From contig NZ_JABTEZ010000001.1 in assembly GCF_015711605.1 (NCBI RefSeq), positions 2,260,001 through 2,324,000 on the forward strand: DNA of 64,000 bases, given 5' to 3'. Below, piece by piece: positions 51,137-64,000 of this stretch. Position 1 is the first letter of the stretch; each line of letters begins with the position of its first letter. The DNA is from Planomonospora sp. ID67723. Its GTDB lineage: Bacteria > Actinomycetota > Actinomycetes > Streptosporangiales > Streptosporangiaceae. Under the pieces are notes generated by a model. It was given only the letters and a program-made list of their open reading frames with translations. It had not been told where the DNA came from and did no database searches. Made by a program: the position numbers and the translations under genes.

Positions 51137-52030
51137 TCAGGCCAGGACGCGGCCGAGCACGCGGGCGTACATCCGGCCCGGGCTGGGGACCGACGGCGGA
51201 GTGAGGAAACCGGGGAGCATGGGCAGGTCCACGGCGAAGGGCTGCAGCCGCTCGTAGAGGGCGTCGGCGCCCGCCGGGCGGCGGTCGGGATCCTTCTCCA
51301 GCAGGTCGGCCAGGAGGCGGTTCAGGTCGTCCGGGATGCCGGGGACCGGAGGCGGGCGCTCCTTCACCTGGCGCTCGAACACGACGTACTCGGTGGGGCC
51401 GGTGAAAAGCTGCTCGCCCGTCAGCATCTCGTGGATCACGCAGCCCAGGGCGTACAGGTCGCTGCGCGGGCCGGCCAGACCCCGCTGGATCTGCTCGGGG
51501 GCCATGTAGGACGGGGTTCCGAGGATCTGCCCGACCCGGGTGAACTGGGCGGAGCCGGCCTCACGGAACATCGCCAGGCCGAAGTCCAGGACCTTGACGC
51601 TCCCGTCGGGGCAGAGCATCAGGTTGGTCGGTTTGAGGTCGCGGTGGCAGATGGAGAGCGCGTGCGCGGCCGAGAGCACCGCGCAGGCCTGGGCGGCGAT
51701 CGCGGCGGCCCACGGGACGGGGAGCGGGCCGTGCTCGCTGACCAGGTCGGCCACGGTGACGCCCTCGATGAACTGCATCACCTGGAACAGCCGCTGCTCG
51801 AAGGTGCCGAAGTCGTACAGGACCGGGGCGCCGGGGTGCTCCAACCGGGCCAGGATGCGGGCCTCGCGCAGGAAGCGCCGCTTCAGCTCCTCGTCGGGGC
51901 CGGTGAGCAGGCGCAGGAACTTGACCGCCACCCTGCGGTCGAGGTGCTCGTCGTGGCCGGCGTAGACCGCCCCCATCCCTCCCTGCCCGAGGGGGAGGTC
52001 GTCGAGAACGTAGCGGTCGCCGATGACCAT
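51137..52030 (-). CDS. Soluble Ser/Thr protein kinase
   Basis: A 297-residue protein that is almost only a Hanks-type kinase domain: LGQGGMGAVYAG, VAVKFL, HRDLKPTNLM, VLDFGLA, GTPSYMAPEQ and SDLYALGCVIHEML. No membrane segment or PASTA domain is present, which is unusual for actinobacteria. AGGGAGGG precedes the ATG. It lies 26 bp behind the DNA methylase gene on the same strand and near a PP2C gene, so kinase and phosphatase may act on the same target. Confidence 0.92.
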   Translation of the reverse strand: MVIGDRYVLDDLPLGQGGMGAVYAGHDEHLDRRVAVKFLRLLTGPDEELKRRFLREARILARLEHPGAPVLYDFGTFEQRLFQVMQFIEGVTVADLVSEHGPLPVPWAAAIAAQACAVLSAAHALSICHRDLKPTNLMLCPDGSVKVLDFGLAMFREAGSAQFTRVGQILGTPSYMAPEQIQRGLAGPRSDLYALGCVIHEMLTGEQLFTGPTEYVVFERQVKERPPPVPGIPDDLNRLLADLLEKDPDRRPAGADALYERLQPFAVDLPMLPGFLTPPSVPSPGRMYARVLGRVLA

Positions 52031-52056
52031 CGACCCTCCCTGCGGACCTGCGGGCG

Positions 52057-53994
52057 CTACACCCGTTGGTCGCACGGTCTCAGGTGACCGTCGACCAGTC
52101 CATCAAAGCCTAGCCGGATCAAGGTCTCACCCAGTGCCGCCGTCTCGCGCAACCTGTCCTCCAGCACGGCCAGTTCGCGGAAGGCGGTGCCGTAGCGCCG
52201 CTGCTCGGCCACCGGCAGCACCGGCACCCGGGCCCTGCGCACGTCGAGCCGGCTGGAGCTGGGATGGACGCGGGAGGCGTCGGCCGAGCGGAGGAAGCCG
52301 GCCAGGAAGTGGGGGTCGAGCCGTTCGGGGTCCACCCGGTAGAGCGTGAGCTGCGGCCCGAGCGCCGCGCCGGACCGCTCGACCACCCGGACCGCGCCCA
52401 GCGCGGTGGTCACGATGTCGTCCGGCCTGACCATGACCAGCGCCGGGTCGAGGACCGTGCCCCCCGAGGGGGCCGTGCCCGCGACGGCGTCCTCGGCGGT
52501 GAGGACCGGCACCGGCCCGGAGCCGGCGGTCATCTTGGGCGGGGCCTGGAGGATCGTGACCAGGCCCGCCTTGACCAGCTCGCCGACGGTCGTGGTGGGC
52601 AGCTCCTGCCGCTCGGTGAGCGCCTCCAGGGCCGGGGGCGCGTCCGGCAGCGTGGCCGAGGCCTCCCGGAAGCGGTCCAGCGCGCCGGTGAAGTCGCGCA
52701 CGAAGTCCGGCCCGCCCTGCTGGGGGCGGTGCCGCCCCGGAGCGAGGTCCACCTCGTCGTCGAGCAGGTCGATGATCCGCACCGTACGGCTCTCGCCGGA
52801 CAGCTCGGCCTCGGGGTCGGCCGCGTAGGCGTGCCAGGCCGGCTCCACGATCGACAGGTCCTCGCCGGCGTCCACCATCAGCAGCTGGGACGGGGGCCGC
52901 CCGCCGTCGGGGCGGCGGAGCACCCACAGGTCCGGCCCGCCCGGGGCCAGGGCGATCACGGCCCGCAGCGCCCCGGCGCGCAGCAGGTTGCCCCGGATCC
53001 GCTTGCCGGGGCGGCGGCTGGCCGCCGCGGCGGGCATCAGGACCGCCACCAGGCCGCCCGGCCGCACGTGGGCCAGGCAGTGTTGCACCCAGGCGAGCTC
53101 CGGCTCGCCGCGCGGCGGCAGGCCGTACTCCCAGCGGGGGTCACCGGCCAGCTCCTCGTAACCCCAGGCCCGCTCGTTGAACGGGGGGTCGCAGACCACC
53201 GCGGCGGCGAGCTCGCCGGCCAGGCCGTCCTCGCGGAGCGAGTCACCGGCCACGATCCGGGCAGGCGCCCCGCGCAGCAGCAGCCGTACCGCGCTGAGCA
53301 GGGCGTTCGTCTCGTTGATCTCCTGTCCGAGCGGGGCGGCGGCGTTCAGGAGCAGGGTGCCGACGCCGCAGGCCGGATCGAGCACGGGCCCGGCGCCCCC
53401 GCTGTCCCCACCGACCAGCCGGATCATGAGCGCGGCCACGTCATCCCTGGTGACCGAGAGCTGGCGGGAGTGGGCCTCCACGTAGCGCGCGCAGAGGAAC
53501 TCGAACGCGGCCAGCGGGCCGTTCTCCGCGGCGAGCCGGGCGGTCAGCCGGAGCAGCGTACGGTCGTCCGCCCGGAACCCGGGTGCACCCGGCAGGTCGG
53601 TCGTGGCGGCCGCCACCAGCTCGGAGAGGGGACGCGCGCCGGGGTCGCCCGACAGGGACCGCACGCCGTGGTCACGCCAGCCGGAGGGGTCGCGGTGCAG
53701 GAACAGCAGGAAGGCGCCGACCCGGCCGACCAGCTCGCCCAGGCGCAGGTCGTCGACCGTGGTCCGCATCCGCTGCCAGACCAGGTCGCCCAGGGAGACC
53801 TCGAAGGACTTGCCGTTGCCGCGCAGCCAGGCGGTGACCTCGGACAGGGAGAAAAGCGGGCTGGAGGCGGTTCCGCCGACCGGCTGGGGGAAGTCCTCGT
53901 GGCGGCGGCGCCAGTTGCTCACCGCCGCCCGGCCCACATCGGCGAACCGGGCGATGTCGCCCGCGTTCACGGTGATCTCCTGGCTCTCCTCCAT
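52057..53994 (-). CDS. N6-adenine DNA methylase with HTH and specificity-like tail
   Basis: A 645-residue protein. Residues 10-60 form a helix-turn-helix (GDIARFADVGRAAVSNWRRR). The methylase core has the SAM motif LDPACGVGTLLL (about residue 208) and the catalytic CDPPFNERAW (about 268), a variant of the NPPF of type I HsdM. The C-terminal third (TVLDPALVMVRPDDIVTTAL, DPHFLAGFLRSADASRVHPS) resembles half of an HsdS specificity subunit. No HsdR nuclease is nearby. It may be an orphan methylase or a DNA-binding regulator. The long frame upstream of the ATG is antisense to the PP2C gene. Confidence 0.82.
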   Translation of the reverse strand: MEESQEITVNAGDIARFADVGRAAVSNWRRRHEDFPQPVGGTASSPLFSLSEVTAWLRGNGKSFEVSLGDLVWQRMRTTVDDLRLGELVGRVGAFLLFLHRDPSGWRDHGVRSLSGDPGARPLSELVAAATTDLPGAPGFRADDRTLLRLTARLAAENGPLAAFEFLCARYVEAHSRQLSVTRDDVAALMIRLVGGDSGGAGPVLDPACGVGTLLLNAAAPLGQEINETNALLSAVRLLLRGAPARIVAGDSLREDGLAGELAAAVVCDPPFNERAWGYEELAGDPRWEYGLPPRGEPELAWVQHCLAHVRPGGLVAVLMPAAAASRRPGKRIRGNLLRAGALRAVIALAPGGPDLWVLRRPDGGRPPSQLLMVDAGEDLSIVEPAWHAYAADPEAELSGESRTVRIIDLLDDEVDLAPGRHRPQQGGPDFVRDFTGALDRFREASATLPDAPPALEALTERQELPTTTVGELVKAGLVTILQAPPKMTAGSGPVPVLTAEDAVAGTAPSGGTVLDPALVMVRPDDIVTTALGAVRVVERSGAALGPQLTLYRVDPERLDPHFLAGFLRSADASRVHPSSSRLDVRRARVPVLPVAEQRRYGTAFRELAVLEDRLRETAALGETLIRLGFDGLVDGHLRPCDQRV

Positions 53995-54078
53995 ACCGAC
54001 CCACAGTAGTTGACTGTGCTGAAATGGTCTACAACAGCTTTGCTTGTGAAGTGCTTCAACCAGTGCTTTACTGCCTTC

Positions 54079-54876
54079 ATGGCACAAAACGAAGGACCGG
54101 CACTGCGCTATGCCGCCCGCTCCGACGTCGGAGTCCGCCGAGAGGCCAACGAGGACTCGGGTTACGCGAGCGCGCGCCTGCTCGCCATCGCCGACGGCAT
54201 GGGCGGCCACGTCGGCGGAGAGATCGCCAGCTCGCTCGCGGTCACCGCCGTGGCGGCGATGGACGACAGCCTTCCGGAAAGCGGCGCCGACCTCAAGGCG
54301 GCGCTGAAGGCGGTGGCCAAAGACGTCAACCGCATGATCCGCGAGATGGCCGAGCAGGAGCCCGCGCTGCGCGGGATGGGCACCACCCTCACCGCGCTGC
54401 TCTGGGACGGCGACATGTTCGCCCTGGCCCACGTCGGCGACTCCCGTGCCTACATGCTGCGCGACGGCGCCCTCTACCAGATCACCCACGACCACACCCT
54501 GGTGCAGTCGCTGGTCGACGACGGCCGGATCACCCCCGAGCAGGCGGCCGAGCATCCGCGCAGGTCGATGGTCCTGCGCGTGCTGGAGGGCACCGGCGAC
54601 GGCGAGCTCGATCTGACCCTTCGCGAGGCCCACGCGGGCGACCGCTACCTCGTCTGCTCCGACGGCCTGACCGCCGTGGTCGGCCCGGAGACCCTCTTCA
54701 ACACCCTCAGTGAGATCGACGATCCCGACGAGGCCGCCCACCGGCTCATCGACCTCGCCAACCGCGGCGGCGGACCGGACAACATCACCTGTGTCGTGGC
54801 CGACTTCGGGCCCTATCCGGTCGGCGCCGAGCGTTTCGTCGTGGGGGCCGCGACCGAGCGGAAGCTGACGCCCTGA
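54079..54876 (+). CDS. PP2C-type Ser/Thr protein phosphatase
   Basis: A 265-residue single-domain phosphatase: RREANEDS, IADGMGGHVGGE, GTTLTALL, HVGDSRAYMLRDG, CSDGLT and GGGPDNITCVVADF supply the metal ligands. It removes phosphate from serine and threonine and is the natural counterpart of the kinase across the divergent promoter. The ATG at 54079 gives the normal start; TTGTGA and TTTACT 17 bp apart just upstream suggest a leaderless transcript. Confidence 0.93.
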   Translation: MAQNEGPALRYAARSDVGVRREANEDSGYASARLLAIADGMGGHVGGEIASSLAVTAVAAMDDSLPESGADLKAALKAVAKDVNRMIREMAEQEPALRGMGTTLTALLWDGDMFALAHVGDSRAYMLRDGALYQITHDHTLVQSLVDDGRITPEQAAEHPRRSMVLRVLEGTGDGELDLTLREAHAGDRYLVCSDGLTAVVGPETLFNTLSEIDDPDEAAHRLIDLANRGGGPDNITCVVADFGPYPVGAERFVVGAATERKLTP

Positions 54877-54895
54877 GCCCGCCCGCGTCCCCCGG

Positions 54896-55702
54896 TCAGG
54901 CCACCCGGGCGGACGCGGCGGTCCAGGTGTTGCACGCCGACGGAGAGACCGCCCTGAAGCCGCGGTCCATCCAGTAGACGATGTTCGCGCCCTTGCCGTG
55001 GTCGCGGACACCGCCCTCGACGTAGTCGTCACCCGTCATCCTCTGGCTCGCCAGCAGCAGCCGCCAGTCGCCGGCGGTGCGCGCCAGCGACTCCCAGACG
55101 GAACCGGTGAAGACCCCGGTCAGGCACTCGGCCTGCAGTTCCTGCCTGCGGTACTGCTCGTTCAGCTCCTTCTTGTTCCGGTAGGCCAGCCGCTGGTTGC
55201 CCTTCGTGATCCCCGAGAGGCTCTGCACATGGTGGGCGTACTCATGGGCGACCACCGTCAGCAGGAACAGGTCCGACTCGTCGTCGAGCAGGTCGGAGCC
55301 GATCGGGAAGTTCAGGCTCCGCTCCGACCGGCAGTAGATCGCGATCGTGTCCTCCGGCCACTTCTTCCCGCAGGCGCGGCCCTTCTCGGAGACGAACCTG
55401 ACCACCGGTTTGCGGAACGCCAGGCCCCGCCTGCGCAGCTCGGCGGACCAGACGCGGTCGAGGCACCTCACGATCGCGAGCGTGTAGCGCTTGACGGAGG
55501 CCCTGCTGTCCTCGATCTCCGGCTCCTCGCACGCGACCTGCTTGAAGACGCCCCCCTTGTAGAGCGGGTTGTGCGTGAGCAGGGGGGCGTCCTTGACCGG
55601 GTACCGCGCCCCGGCGGCCTCGGCGGTGCCGGGGACGCCGGCGAGGACGAGCCCGGCGAGGAGCGCGGGAAGGAACGTTCCGATGATTCGTCTGGTCGTC
55701 AT
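54896..55702 (-). CDS. Secreted zinc metallopeptidase (YpfJ-like)
   Basis: A 268-residue protein with a signal peptide (IGTFLPALLAGLVLAGVPGT, cleavage near AEA-AGA). The zinc site is VVAHEYAHHVQSLSG (HEYAH, an HExxH motif), with a likely third ligand in RRQELQAECLTGVF. This fits the putative neutral zinc metallopeptidase family (YpfJ). Conserved cysteines (VACEE, IVRCLDR, RACGKKW, IYCRSE) suggest disulfides outside the cell. AGAAAGG precedes the ATG. The target is unknown. Confidence 0.88.
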   Translation of the reverse strand: MTTRRIIGTFLPALLAGLVLAGVPGTAEAAGARYPVKDAPLLTHNPLYKGGVFKQVACEEPEIEDSRASVKRYTLAIVRCLDRVWSAELRRRGLAFRKPVVRFVSEKGRACGKKWPEDTIAIYCRSERSLNFPIGSDLLDDESDLFLLTVVAHEYAHHVQSLSGITKGNQRLAYRNKKELNEQYRRQELQAECLTGVFTGSVWESLARTAGDWRLLLASQRMTGDDYVEGGVRDHGKGANIVYWMDRGFRAVSPSACNTWTAASARVA

Positions 55703-55800
55703 CGATGCGGCCTTTCTGGGGGACGCCTCTGGATCCGGAGGTGCGGGACGGGCCCGGTGCGGGGACGGCCGCACAGGCCGCCGAGGTCGAGGGTCACGGG

Positions 55801-60764
<4,964 letters not shown>

Positions 60765-60768
<4 letters not shown>

Positions 60769-62867
60769 TCCCGGCCCGTGGCGGCGACGGGGGCCGAGCC
60801 GTTGTCGGCCGCCGGGACGTCGGCGGTGACGGCCGCCACGGTCGCGGTGGGCACCACGGTGACCGCCGGAGCCGCGGCGGTCGCGGTGCCGAGCAGCTCG
60901 CGCAGCCGGGCGCCCTCGGGGCCGGTCTCGCTCATCAGCTTCACCAGCAGCGCCGAGAGCGAAAGGTCCCGCACGTCACCGCTGCCCAGCGAGCCGAGGG
61001 CCCGGGTCAGGTCGGCGGGCAGGCTCTGCGACCCGTCCAGATACGGCCCGGCGAGCGTACGGGCGATGCCGGAGCTCTCCACGAAGCCGTCCACGGCCTT
61101 GCCCATGGTGACCGAGCCGACCAGCTTGTCGAAGAAGACGCTGTCGCCGCCGACGATGTCGATGTTGGCCTTCTCCAGACCGGCGGCGAGCACCATGGCC
61201 TGCGCCTCGGCGAGCTTGACCTGGGAGGTGACGCCCGCCAGGCGGATCTCCTTCTCCATGTCGAGGCGGAGGCGGTACTCCTCGTGGCCCCGGCTCGCGT
61301 CGTCCAGCGCGGCCATCGCCGCCGCCTTCTCGGTGAGGCCCTCGGCCTCGGCCTTCAGCCGCTCGCCGATCCGGGCCGCCTCGGCCAGCGCCCTGGCCTG
61401 CTCGCCCTCGGCGGCGGCCAGCGCCTTCTCCCGCTCGACCGCGGCCTCGGCCCGGCCGACCTTCTCGATCGCGGCGGCGTTGCGCTCGGCCACCTGCACC
61501 TCGGCCAGGCCGGTCGCGGCGGCCTCGGCCTGCACGCCCTCGGCCAGGCGGATCTTGGCGCGGGCGTCGAGCTCGGCGGCCTGCTGGCGCGCCTCGGCCA
61601 GCACCAGGGCCTCGCGGGCCTTGTGCTTGGAGGCGGCCTCGGCTGCCTCGGCGGCCTTGATGTCCTTGACCAGGTTCTCCTGGGCCTCGGCCTCCGCCTG
61701 GATGATCACGGCCTGGCGGGTCCGCTCGGCCTCCTCGACCACCCGCAGGCGCTTGATGCTCTCCTCCTGCTCGGCGACCGTCTTCTCGACCGCGATGCGC
61801 TCCCGGACCACCTCGGCGATCGAGCGCTTCTCGCCTTCGACCTCCTTGTCCTTGGAGATGCGCGACAGCTCGGTCTCGCGCTCGCGGGAGATGACCTCCA
61901 GCATGCGGTCCTTCTCGATCCGCTCGCTCTCGACGGCGATGACCCGCTCGCGGTTCTTGGCCGCGACCGCGATCTCCCGGGCCTGGTTCTCCTGCTGGAT
62001 GCCGAGCTGCTCCTGGGTGCGCAGGTCCGCGGCGTGGGCCTTGAGCCGCTCCTCGGCCCGGACCCGGGCGATCTCCGCCTCCTCGCGGGCGCGCATGGTC
62101 TCGACCTCGCGCTTCTGCTTGATCTCCGCGTCGGCCTGGCGGCGCTCCAGCTCCAGGATGGCCTCCCGGGCGTCGACGTTCTGGCGGGTGATCTCCTTCT
62201 CCTCGTGCCGCTGGAACTCGTTGGTCCGCACGTGCTCGATCGCGGTCAGCTCGGTGATCTTGCGGATGCCCTGGGCGTCGAGGATGTTGGCCGGGTCGAG
62301 CTTGCTGAGCGGCGTCTGCTCCAGATGGTCGATCGCCGCGTCCTCCAGGCTGTAGCCGTTCAGGTCGGTGCCGATGACCTGGATGATCTGGTCGCGGAAC
62401 TGGTCGCGCTGGGTGTAGAGGTCGACGAAGTCGAGCTGCTTGCCCACGGTCTTCAGCGCCTCGGAGAACTTGGCGTTGAACAGCTCCTGCAGCGTCTCCT
62501 GGTCGCTGGCCCGGGCGGTGCCGATGGCCTGGGCGACCTTCACGACGTCCTCGACGGTCTTGTTGACCCGGACGAAGAAGGTGATCTTGATGTCGGCGCG
62601 GATGTTGTCCCGGCAGATCAGCCCCTCGTTGCCGGACCGTTCGATCTCGATGGTCTTCACCGAGATGTCCATGAGTTCCGCCTTGTGGAGCACGGGGAGG
62701 ACGACCGCCCCGGTGAAGGTGACGTCCACCTTGTTGACCTTCGAGACGATGAGCGCCTTGCCTTGTTCGACCTTGTTGAACAGGCGGCTGATCATGATCA
62801 CCAGCGCGATGGCGACGAGCAGGACGACGGCGAGGAGTACGCCGAGGCCGGTGGAGATGACGTCCAT
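60765..62867 (-). CDS. Flotillin (YqiK-like SPFH protein)
   Basis: A 700-residue protein with an N-terminal membrane segment (GLGVLLAVVLLVAIALVIMI), an SPFH/band 7 domain to about residue 200 (VEQGKALIVSKVNKVDVTFT, IRADIKITFFVRVNKTVEDV) and a long charged coiled coil with EA-rich repeats to about 560 (ERRQADAEIKQKREVETMRA). Flotillins form scaffolds in the membrane. It lies between the OB-fold protein and the giant ATPase and overlaps the latter by four bases, so the three are probably one complex. Confidence 0.93.
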
Positions 62868-62878
62868 GGAGCCCTTCG

Positions 62879-63493
62879 CTAGATAGGACGATCAGGGTCG
62901 AGTTCCGCGTCGTAGGGCGTCACCCAGAAGAATTCGCCGTCGCTGTCGTAGGCGAAGATCAGGGCGGTGCCGCCGGCGAGGAAGACGTCGTCGCCGGTCT
63001 GACGGACCTGGATGAGAGCGGAGGAGCCGTCGGCGGAGGTGACCTCGGCCTGGCCGAAGCTCCGGGACACCCGGCCGGTGCGGATGACGCACATGCGGCC
63101 CACGAAGTCGGCGCGGGAGGGGACGCGCTCCTTCGGTACGGCGCGCCGCAGCGGCAGCGTCAGCAGGCGGGTGCCGAGCCAGGCGCAGGCGAGCACGGCG
63201 ACGAGCACGGCGGCCAGCGCCGGGGTGCCGGTGACCAGGGTGGAGCCCGCGAGGCTGGTGAACCAGGCGATGACGACCAGCAGCGAGACGGTCACGGCGA
63301 CCGGTACGCCGCCGAGTCCGAGGCCCGACAGGAGACCGGACAGGCCGGCCGTCTCCGCGCCGTCGGCGGTCTCGTCGCCGTCGAGCCCGGTCACGCCGAA
63401 CAGCGCGAGGACCCAGTAGGCGACGACCACCATGAGAAGGAAGCTGAACAGGACGGTGGGAAAGGCTGAGGCGGCATCGACGAACCGGCCCAT
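62879..63493 (-). CDS. OB-fold membrane protein (YqiJ/NfeD-like)
   Basis: A 204-residue protein with membrane segments at about residues 12-33 (PTVLFSFLLMVVVAYWVLAL) and 64-110 (VAVTVSLLVVIAWFTSLAGS, ALAAVLVAVLACAWLGT) and a C-terminal OB-fold (FVGRMCVIRTGRVSRSFGQA, SALIQVRQTGDDVFLAGGTA). This is the YqiJ/NfeD pattern that pairs with flotillins. It is the first gene of the flotillin-ATPase operon, 11 bp before flotillin. A TATAGT element (63553-63558, minus strand) may be the operon's -10 box. Confidence 0.85.
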   Translation of the reverse strand: MGRFVDAASAFPTVLFSFLLMVVVAYWVLALFGVTGLDGDETADGAETAGLSGLLSGLGLGGVPVAVTVSLLVVIAWFTSLAGSTLVTGTPALAAVLVAVLACAWLGTRLLTLPLRRAVPKERVPSRADFVGRMCVIRTGRVSRSFGQAEVTSADGSSALIQVRQTGDDVFLAGGTALIFAYDSDGEFFWVTPYDAELDPDRPI

Positions 63494-63650
63494 CGGCGTG
63501 TGGGATCCCCCTGTGGTGTGGTGAAGCGCGCTCCCCCGAGCGCATGCGCCTGACTATATAGAGATAAAGCGCAAGTAAAGGAGATAGTTCCCGACACCCG
63601 AAGAAATGTTCATTCAGGGATGGGGCCGGCGGGGACCGAGGGCGTGAAGA

Positions 63651-63681
63651 GGCCGGGGAGGCGGAGACCCGTCCCCCGGCC
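63651..63681 (-). terminator. Hairpin behind the small membrane peptide gene
   Basis: GGCCGGGG (63651-63658) pairs with CCCCGGCC (63674-63681). It lies directly behind the stop of the 28-residue gene on the minus strand. There is no T-tract, which is common for actinobacterial terminators. Confidence 0.5.
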
Positions 63682-63704
63682 GTGCTGCAGCTTCGCCGCC
63701 CCCG

Positions 63705-63791
63705 CTAGGCGGTGATCATGTAGGCGAGGCCGATGAGGATGACGACGGGAATGAGCCACACGACCGCTTCGATGGCGAATTCCTTGTACAC
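63705..63791 (-). CDS. 28-residue single-pass membrane peptide
   Basis: The GTG at 63791 has GGAGG nine bases upstream and encodes VYKEFAIEAVVWLIPVVILI then GLAYMITA. It is one hydrophobic helix with a short charged start. A longer frame upstream has no support. It sits alone between the second PP2C gene and the OB-fold/flotillin operon, and small peptides of this kind often sit in membrane complexes. No family is known to me. Confidence 0.6.
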   Translation of the reverse strand: MYKEFAIEAVVWLIPVVILIGLAYMITA

Positions 63792-63879
63792 GGCGGCGTC
63801 CCTCCGGAGCAATGATCGATGAGGAGCACGGATAACCGACGATAGCGTCAGCACCCCGTCCCGGCCAGGATTCACCCGG

Positions 63880-64000
63880 TCAGGAGGAGGGGTCGGCGGA
63901 GCCGACGACCACGGGGACGTCCTGGACCGCACCGGGCTCGTCGACCACGTCGGCCACGACGCAGGTGATGTTGTCCGGTCCGCCGCCCTCGCAGGCGAGC
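63880..64000 (-). CDS. Second PP2C-type phosphatase, C-terminal part (cut by window edge)
   Basis: Only the last 39 residues are present: LACEGGGPDNITCVVADVVD, then a short acidic tail and a stop at 63880. GGGPDNITCVVAD is the final metal-binding motif of PP2C phosphatases and is identical to the one in the gene at 54079, so the two are paralogues. Confidence 0.85.
   Translation of the reverse strand, partial: LACEGGGPDNITCVVADVVDEPGAVQDVPVVVGSADPSS

Follow-up and report, generated by a model that had tools for sequence, protein, structure and literature searches.

A conserved gene unit of a YqiJ-like membrane protein, a flotillin and a giant AAA+ ATPase in Planomonospora sp. ID67723 and other bacteria

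Flotillins of the SPFH2 type are paired with an NfeD2 operon partner of the YuaF/YqiJ type that has an OB-like domain (PMC2636767). Operons that combine such proteins with an AAA+ ATPase, with and without PspA, were described by Ravi et al. in 2024 (PMC11237479), the abbreviated form being the more widely distributed, and a chaperone-like role in the assembly of membrane complexes was proposed for them. FloA of Staphylococcus aureus together with NfeD holds unfolded proteins in an ATP-independent manner (PMC11222466), and cages are formed both by flotillins and by HflK/C, the latter with AAA+ proteases inside (PMC11260169). Here we describe a locus of this kind from the soil actinomycete Planomonospora sp. 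ID67723, situated in a stretch of 64,000 nucleotides (contig NZ_JABTEZ010000001.1, positions 2,260,001 to 2,324,000), further referred to as the window. Its core is a trio of genes for a YqiJ-like membrane protein, a flotillin and a giant AAA+ ATPase. A preliminary description made from the sequence had called the function of this set undescribed; the operon type is in fact already in print, its function having been left untested in the parts of PMC11237479 compared.

The trio was read from open reading frames and their junctions, domains were assigned with Pfam, and the neighbouring genome sequence was read beyond the end of the window. All three genes lie on the minus strand. The first of them (63493-62879) encodes the YqiJ-like protein of 204 residues with about three N-terminal hydrophobic stretches followed by a soluble C-terminal part, the second (62867-60765), a flotillin-type SPFH protein of 700 residues, and the third (60768-55801, GTG start), the ATPase of 1655 residues. 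An 11-bp gap separates the first two genes, and the flotillin and ATPase genes overlap by 4 bp, so that the junctions and the ATPase length given in the preliminary description are confirmed. The window locus has the composition of the abbreviated operon of Ravi et al., that is, a flotillin, a YqiJ/YuaF-like transmembrane protein and an AAA+ ATPase encoded by adjacent, co-directional genes.

The public genomes were scanned with the ATPase alone. This yielded 439 confirmed relatives, of which the best 80 named loci, all from Actinomycetota by title, were analysed. They carry 30 genus labels, with Verrucosispora counted under Micromonospora and [Actinomadura] parvosata (L108) under Nonomuraea; Glycomyces fuscus (L109) was wrongly labelled Nocardiopsis, where the ATPase tree also places it. 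The closest ATPase among these 80 matches belongs to Planomonospora venezuelensis (88% identity). In 79 of the 80 loci, the ATPase gene is preceded by the flotillin and YqiJ-like genes in the same orientation, and the record of the sole exception (L074) starts at a contig end. The linkage of the three genes is far beyond chance.

Eleven of twelve loci from a plasmid collection were then added (the second Proteus record was left out), giving a set of 91 loci. The ATPase is accompanied by flotillin in 90 of them, and all three genes are present in 89; an ATPase occurring mostly without flotillin, the outcome that the preliminary description had named as speaking against its proposal, was not observed. 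A YqiJ-like homologue upstream of flotillin on the same strand was found in 88 loci and in 89 after tblastn had recovered L051 (Phytohabitans suffuscus), where the gene is placed directly before flotillin. The YqiJ-like frame of L051 (7337-7903, plus strand) has no in-frame stop at the expected end, which may reflect a frameshift or a sequencing error. No YqiJ-like gene was detectable in L128, a Streptomyces globosus plasmid. The gap between the YqiJ-like and flotillin genes does not exceed 50 bp in 63 of 88 loci (the longest is 1286 bp), and that between flotillin and ATPase, in 65 of 90 (the longest is 218 bp). Among 41 short loci from the genome search, the window's own included, a flotillin sequence lies beside the ATPase within the 1.5-kb flank in 40; the remaining one (L014) is a second fragment of the ATPase gene already counted as L009. 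The short and the named sets overlap, and some genomes are identical (e.g. L016 and L044, L028 and L087).

For 49 of the 80 named loci, with no genus label contributing more than three, the genes around the trio were clustered, using open reading frames of at least 70 codons that passed a filter on the G+C content of codon positions. No gene kept at a fixed place beside the trio was found in these 49 loci. The widest cluster, an ABC-transporter ATPase, spans eight genus labels and occurs at scattered places and on both strands. The YqiJ-like, flotillin and ATPase genes are a conserved unit and a real operon. The evolutionary distances of their products are correlated: in 78 actinobacterial loci r equals 0.83 for the ATPase and flotillin and ranges from 0.83 to 0.89 among all three proteins (0 of 999 permutations).

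Of 200 genomes sampled from the same family, 97 carry DUF3686; in a sample of 396 across the phylum the number is 9, and the Planomonospora genome itself is counted in both. Four phyla, Actinomycetota, Pseudomonadota, Deinococcota and Bacteroidota, are represented among the records with the trio from the plasmid collection. Its Nonomuraea (11.9 Mb) and Proteus (4.1 Mb) entries probably represent chromosomes. A blastn search of Escherichia coli genomes with 3.9 kb of the Proteus ATPase DNA gave no match, though distant copies would escape it. The ATPase tree groups mostly by genus, with exceptions that include Acrocarpospora and one Streptosporangium (L091).

The ATPase matches, from the N- to the C-terminus, DUF3686 (residues 36-485, E = 7e-224), DUF7902 (603-687, E = 8e-27) and AAA_5 (E = 9e-7), the AAA core extending over residues 1255-1430 approximately. 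It contains a Walker A motif SPPGYGKTT (1295-1303), a Walker B motif ending in DD (1363-1364) and a sensor-1-like AGNP (1409-1412). Walker B usually ends in DE, and DD takes its place in this family. Residues K1301, D1363, D1364 and N1411 are invariant in all 92 aligned ATPase sequences, which come from four phyla. The only hydrophobic stretch (75-93) is marginal and lies inside DUF3686, so there is no convincing transmembrane anchor; no protease family was matched, and hence neither component of an FtsH-type architecture, a zinc protease domain and a transmembrane anchor, was seen. Sequence searches of PDB returned only weak matches of the AAA core to VCP, Rix7 and RuvB, and nothing usable for the N-terminal part of the ATPase, the flotillin or the YqiJ-like protein. 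At about 60391-60417 on the minus strand, within a poorly conserved part of the DUF3686 region, a run of Thr-Asp repeats (TDTDTDTD) is encoded.

The flotillin matches Band_7 at residues 32-176 (E = 2.5e-6, above the Pfam cut-off) and has a single N-terminal hydrophobic stretch at 8-26, the likely anchor, and a long region rich in A, E and R. With its SPFH domain, N-terminal hydrophobic anchor and coiled coil, the latter judged from composition and alignment only, it agrees with the description of SPFH2 proteins (PMC2636767). The YqiJ-like protein matches no Pfam family above the cut-off (the best is "Sensor" with E = 0.011), and YqiJ_N on its Proteus homologue is likewise below it (E = 0.15). 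However, the alignment of YqiJ-like proteins matches the partners from five distant trios over the full length (hhalign probability 99.9%, E = 6.5e-36), and one of these five proteins is annotated as DUF1449. Judging by these similarities, the gene product is predicted to be a YuaF/YqiJ-like membrane partner of the NfeD2 type.

Because a conserved gene unit combines membrane segments with invariant ATPase motifs, the membrane-bound ATP-driven machine suggested in the preliminary description is a natural reading of the sequences. We propose that an SPFH scaffold positions an AAA+ remodeller at the membrane and that the trio encodes one membrane-attached remodelling machine, to which we would give roughly even chances; besides the gene unit, this reading draws on the correlated distances of the three proteins, on the PspA and YjfI- or Tir-type genes that precede the trio in pQBR103 and a Hymenobacter plasmid, on the chaperone-like role proposed in PMC11237479, and on the published work on FloA-NfeD (PMC11222466) and on cages of SPFH and AAA+ proteins (PMC11260169). 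In such a machine an N-terminal helix would anchor the flotillin, which would form a ring or a dome on the cytoplasmic face of the membrane, and the YqiJ/NfeD-like protein with three transmembrane segments would stabilize this scaffold. The giant AAA+ protein would be held at the scaffold, probably through DUF3686 and the middle regions, and would spend ATP to pull on or remodel membrane clients. These may be misfolded or complexed membrane proteins or, alternatively, PspA-type (ESCRT-III-like) coats where PspA is available. A dedicated promoter may drive the trio, perhaps in response to envelope stress.

Several observations weigh against this proposal. Shared vertical descent would likewise produce correlated distances, and when the nearest relative from another genus is taken, the ATPase and the flotillin agree in only 42 of 78 loci. 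PspA adjoins the trio in just 2 of the 91 loci, in searches with single queries and with a three-sequence profile; when one PspA after another was left out, two of the three pair profiles recovered the missing one, and a divergent PspA could therefore escape. Deletion of the bac-operon flotillin of Pseudomonas aeruginosa reduced biofilm by only about 20%, and SPFH mutants of this species were reported to be non-essential for the traits tested (PMC13086221); such a small effect in the tested conditions counts against a strong role in stress. A bolder extension, which we put forward tentatively and consider possible rather than probable, is that the trio represents a further kind of SPFH machine. 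It would consist of a flotillin-NfeD dome with a dedicated giant AAA+ motor bearing the DD variant of Walker B, making an ATP-driven flotillin system, a non-proteolytic counterpart of FtsH-HflK/C that in a part of Streptosporangiaceae has a stress-responsive promoter of its own.

A narrower explanation is that the ATPase is a disassemblase specific for PspA: docked at the flotillin and the YqiJ-like protein, it would act on the ESCRT-III-like PspA filaments as a bacterial analogue of Vps4. The two loci with an adjacent PspA speak for it: PspA and a gene of the YjfI or Tir type precede the trio in pQBR103 (L124) and in a Hymenobacter plasmid (L125), and the bac operon of P. aeruginosa combines genes for a flotillin, a PspA homologue and a YjfI-type protein, followed by bacE and bacF (PMC10948618, PMC13086221). 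The window genome also has one PspA gene elsewhere, but PspA is common (9 of 14 control genomes), so its presence at a distance says little. The CesT/Tir-PspA dyad of the full PSP operon is absent from the window block, and among the 91 loci matches to PspA and to YjfI/Tir were confined to L124 and L125. With so few adjacent PspA genes, we consider a PspA-specific function unlikely. In pQBR103 the genes form a run (L124, 3887-17091) of YjfI, PspA, rhomboid, DUF2491, DUF350, DUF1190, a glutathionylspermidine-synthase-like gene and the trio, which joins two operon groups treated apart in the parts of PMC11237479 compared.

The trio of the window is preceded by a private promoter-like element of 44 bp, GGGAACTATctcCTTTActtgcgCTTTAtctcTATATAGTC, located at 63549-63592 on the minus strand about 100 bp before the YqiJ-like start; it is presumed to be the promoter or operator of the trio. 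With at most two mismatches to the core it was found before the trio in 23 of 88 loci tested, namely in all 17 Nonomuraea-labelled loci (one of them titled [Actinomadura] parvosata), in 4 of 5 Streptosporangium loci, in Planomonospora and in Planobispora. The other 65 loci are without it, and the element thus marks one part of the family. The TATAGT within it may be a −10 box and its CTTTA repeats an activator site; the transcription start would then fall after PP2C-B and the small peptide gene described below. A regulon was rejected: with up to three mismatches allowed, the 8.3-Mb genome contains a single copy of the 28-base core, and none of the reversed control pattern. We also rejected a terminator between the peptide and the trio in the window, since the hairpin there is no better than shuffled sequences (z = −0.40); of six hairpin sequences tested, those from L045, L047 and L048 fold clearly better than shuffles, and those from the window, L046 and L166 do not. 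In 16 Nonomuraea-type loci no PP2C, RF3, methylase or kinase neighbour was found in the flank at hand, which is short in some of them. The element hence seems to be tied to the trio rather than to the site.

The preliminary description also allowed for a role in phage response. The patchy distribution of the trio (97 of 200 family genomes, 9 of 396 across the phylum) and its occurrence in plasmid records would suit an anti-phage defence system, as would a match of the neighbouring phosphatase PP2C-A to one candidate PADLOC family, PDC-M21C (E = 8.7e-7), although this protein is itself read as a bystander. On the other side, tblastn found no match to the ATPase in 50,697 phage records, and a peptide-pattern scan of viral contigs, which would detect only close relatives, was negative as well. 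PADLOC gave two weak AAA-core matches for the ATPase (E = 0.002 and 0.005) and nothing for the flotillin or the YqiJ-like protein. The trio matched no described defence system and had no conserved defence context, conserved neighbours of any kind being absent in the survey above, and the ATPase tree mostly follows the genus. None of these searches supports a phage response, and a defence function appears very improbable.

In the window, the trio is enclosed by further genes. A secreted-type zinc peptidase (PF04228; 55702-54896, minus strand, 268 residues) lies downstream of the ATPase, and an open reading frame for a membrane peptide of 28 residues with a single hydrophobic stretch (63791-63705, minus strand), upstream of the trio. 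Beyond them are two phosphatase genes, both members of an older flanking locus: PP2C-A (Pfam PP2C; 54079-54876, plus strand), convergent with the trio, and PP2C-B, whose last 40 codons or so are in the window (63880-64000, minus strand) and which runs to about 64656 when counted on in the genome. The two are 60% identical (the full PP2C-B was taken from the genome). As to layout, both the flanking paralogous phosphatase genes and the positions of the peptidase and the peptide at the ends of the operon agree with the preliminary description.

The preliminary description had further suggested that the machine is under phosphatase control, in which case both PP2C enzymes, the peptide and the zinc peptidase would belong to the system. 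Their adjacency in the window is consistent with this, and so is the fact that the bracket loci (the window, Planomonospora, Planobispora and four Streptosporangium) form one clade of the ATPase tree with support 1.00. However, PP2C genes on both sides with RF3, DNA methylase and kinase genes beyond were found in only 6 of the 80 loci, all in one group. Moreover, PP2C-A at 80% identity or more is present in nine of 120 family genomes searched; six have the trio between the PP2C pair, and in the other three (G410, G495 and G400) the two genes are separated by 0.4 to 1.3 kb and enclose no trio. All three are outside the 97 family genomes with DUF3686. The order in G410 (L166) is RF3, PP2C-B, peptide, PP2C-A, methylase, kinase, with 114 bp between the peptide and PP2C-A; in G495 and G400 purC occupies the gap. 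A purC-like gene lies between the PP2C genes in all seven relatives examined (L045, L046, L047, L048, L167, L168 and L169); two copies were tested and assigned to SAICAR synthetase by Pfam, and the other five were recognized by visible sequence likeness. In L045-L048 and L169 it stands alongside the trio, and additional genes are present in the intervals of L045, L046, L047 and L169 (those tested include MarR, hydrolase, oxidoreductase and multicopper oxidase).

The peptide is 81-93% identical at the trio-less sites. Of 100 family genomes, 33 encode a peptide of this type (MYKEFAIEAVVWLIPVV...), six of these in two copies. It is found near the trio in only 6 of the 91 loci; in L172 it was not detected despite the presence of the trio and the bracket. 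The second copy in the window genome (L174, 4300-4383, minus strand) has no relative of the window's PP2C pair within the 9 kb read. In the loci examined, the zinc peptidase (Zn_peptidase, E = 3e-16; HEYAHH at residue 153; hydrophobic stretch at 6-24) was seen after the ATPase in the window genome and in Planomonospora (L044, L170) and nowhere else. PP2C-A is convergent with the trio, and the promoter-like element lies between the trio on one side and PP2C-B with the peptide on the other. Since trio-less genomes retain the PP2C pair and the peptide, and the bracket is confined to six of the 80 loci, the bracket does not belong to the module. The PP2C genes, the peptide and the zinc peptidase look like bystanders, and phosphatase control as a general feature is largely refuted; even for the window we find it scarcely credible. 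The peptide and the peptidase, placed at the ends of the operon in the preliminary description, are better left out of it, the former occurring at trio-less sites and the latter having been found only in the window genome and one relative.

The N6 DNA methylase gene of the flanking locus (51137-54009, minus strand; PADLOC MTase_I with E = 2.6e-86, along with mad2/mad1-like matches) overlaps a Ser/Thr kinase gene and is divergent from PP2C-A. Methylase and kinase genes stay with the PP2C pair in related genomes, the trio-less ones included, and this kinase-phosphatase-methylase locus merits a separate study. Finally, the public annotation name of the ATPase, DNA repair ATPase, can be practically dismissed as a guide to function: the weak similarity of the AAA core to RuvB is shared with VCP and Rix7, the protein is constantly paired with two membrane proteins, and Pfam found in it no nuclease or known DNA-binding domain.

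Our literature search, with most subscription journals outside its coverage, returned no paper for DUF3686, nor one for flotillin together with "DNA repair ATPase". The operon kind is already known; new here are the survey of neighbouring genes, the separation of the bracket from the trio and the 44-bp promoter-like element, which is not mentioned in the parts of PMC11237479 compared. The result on the flanks is a useful negative, in that the comparison with empty sites keeps others from modelling on the phosphatase bracket. The ATPase was seldom seen without its flotillin and YqiJ-like partner, and the trio offers a direct and testable case of an energy-driven flotillin machine.

Among the described systems, the operons of Ravi et al. 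(PMC11237479) are the closest. The window has the same set of band-7/flotillin, YqiJ and AAA+ genes and is an abbreviated relative of the PspA/CesT-Tir/band-7-flotillin/AAA+/YqiJ operons, from which it differs by the lack of the CesT/Tir-PspA dyad at the locus and by lineage-specific bystanders. Their ATPase has an N-terminal beta-propeller and a coiled coil before the AAA+ domain. The window protein has DUF3686, DUF7902 and the AAA core in this order, and DUF3686 may correspond to the beta-propeller. The bac operon of P. aeruginosa, bacABCDEF (PMC2587700, PMC10948618, PMC13086221), encodes a YjfI-type protein, a PspA homologue, an NfeD-like membrane protein and a flotillin (PaFlo3) on one transcript, followed by bacE; compared with it, the window locus is without PspA or YjfI and taxonomically distant. 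PA3728 is listed as "ATPase", with three references, in the gene table of a paper on adaptation in cystic fibrosis (PMC8190622), and bacE may be PA3728 and may encode a DUF3686 protein. FloA-NfeD of S. aureus (PMC11222466) shares with the trio a flotillin and an NfeD partner as a membrane scaffold, but it is ATP-independent, and in the parts of that paper compared no AAA+ partner is reported. FtsH-HflK/C (PMC11260169, PMC12048511) shares the principle that an AAA+ enzyme and an SPFH scaffold act together at the membrane and differs in that the window ATPase has neither a protease domain match nor a convincing transmembrane anchor.

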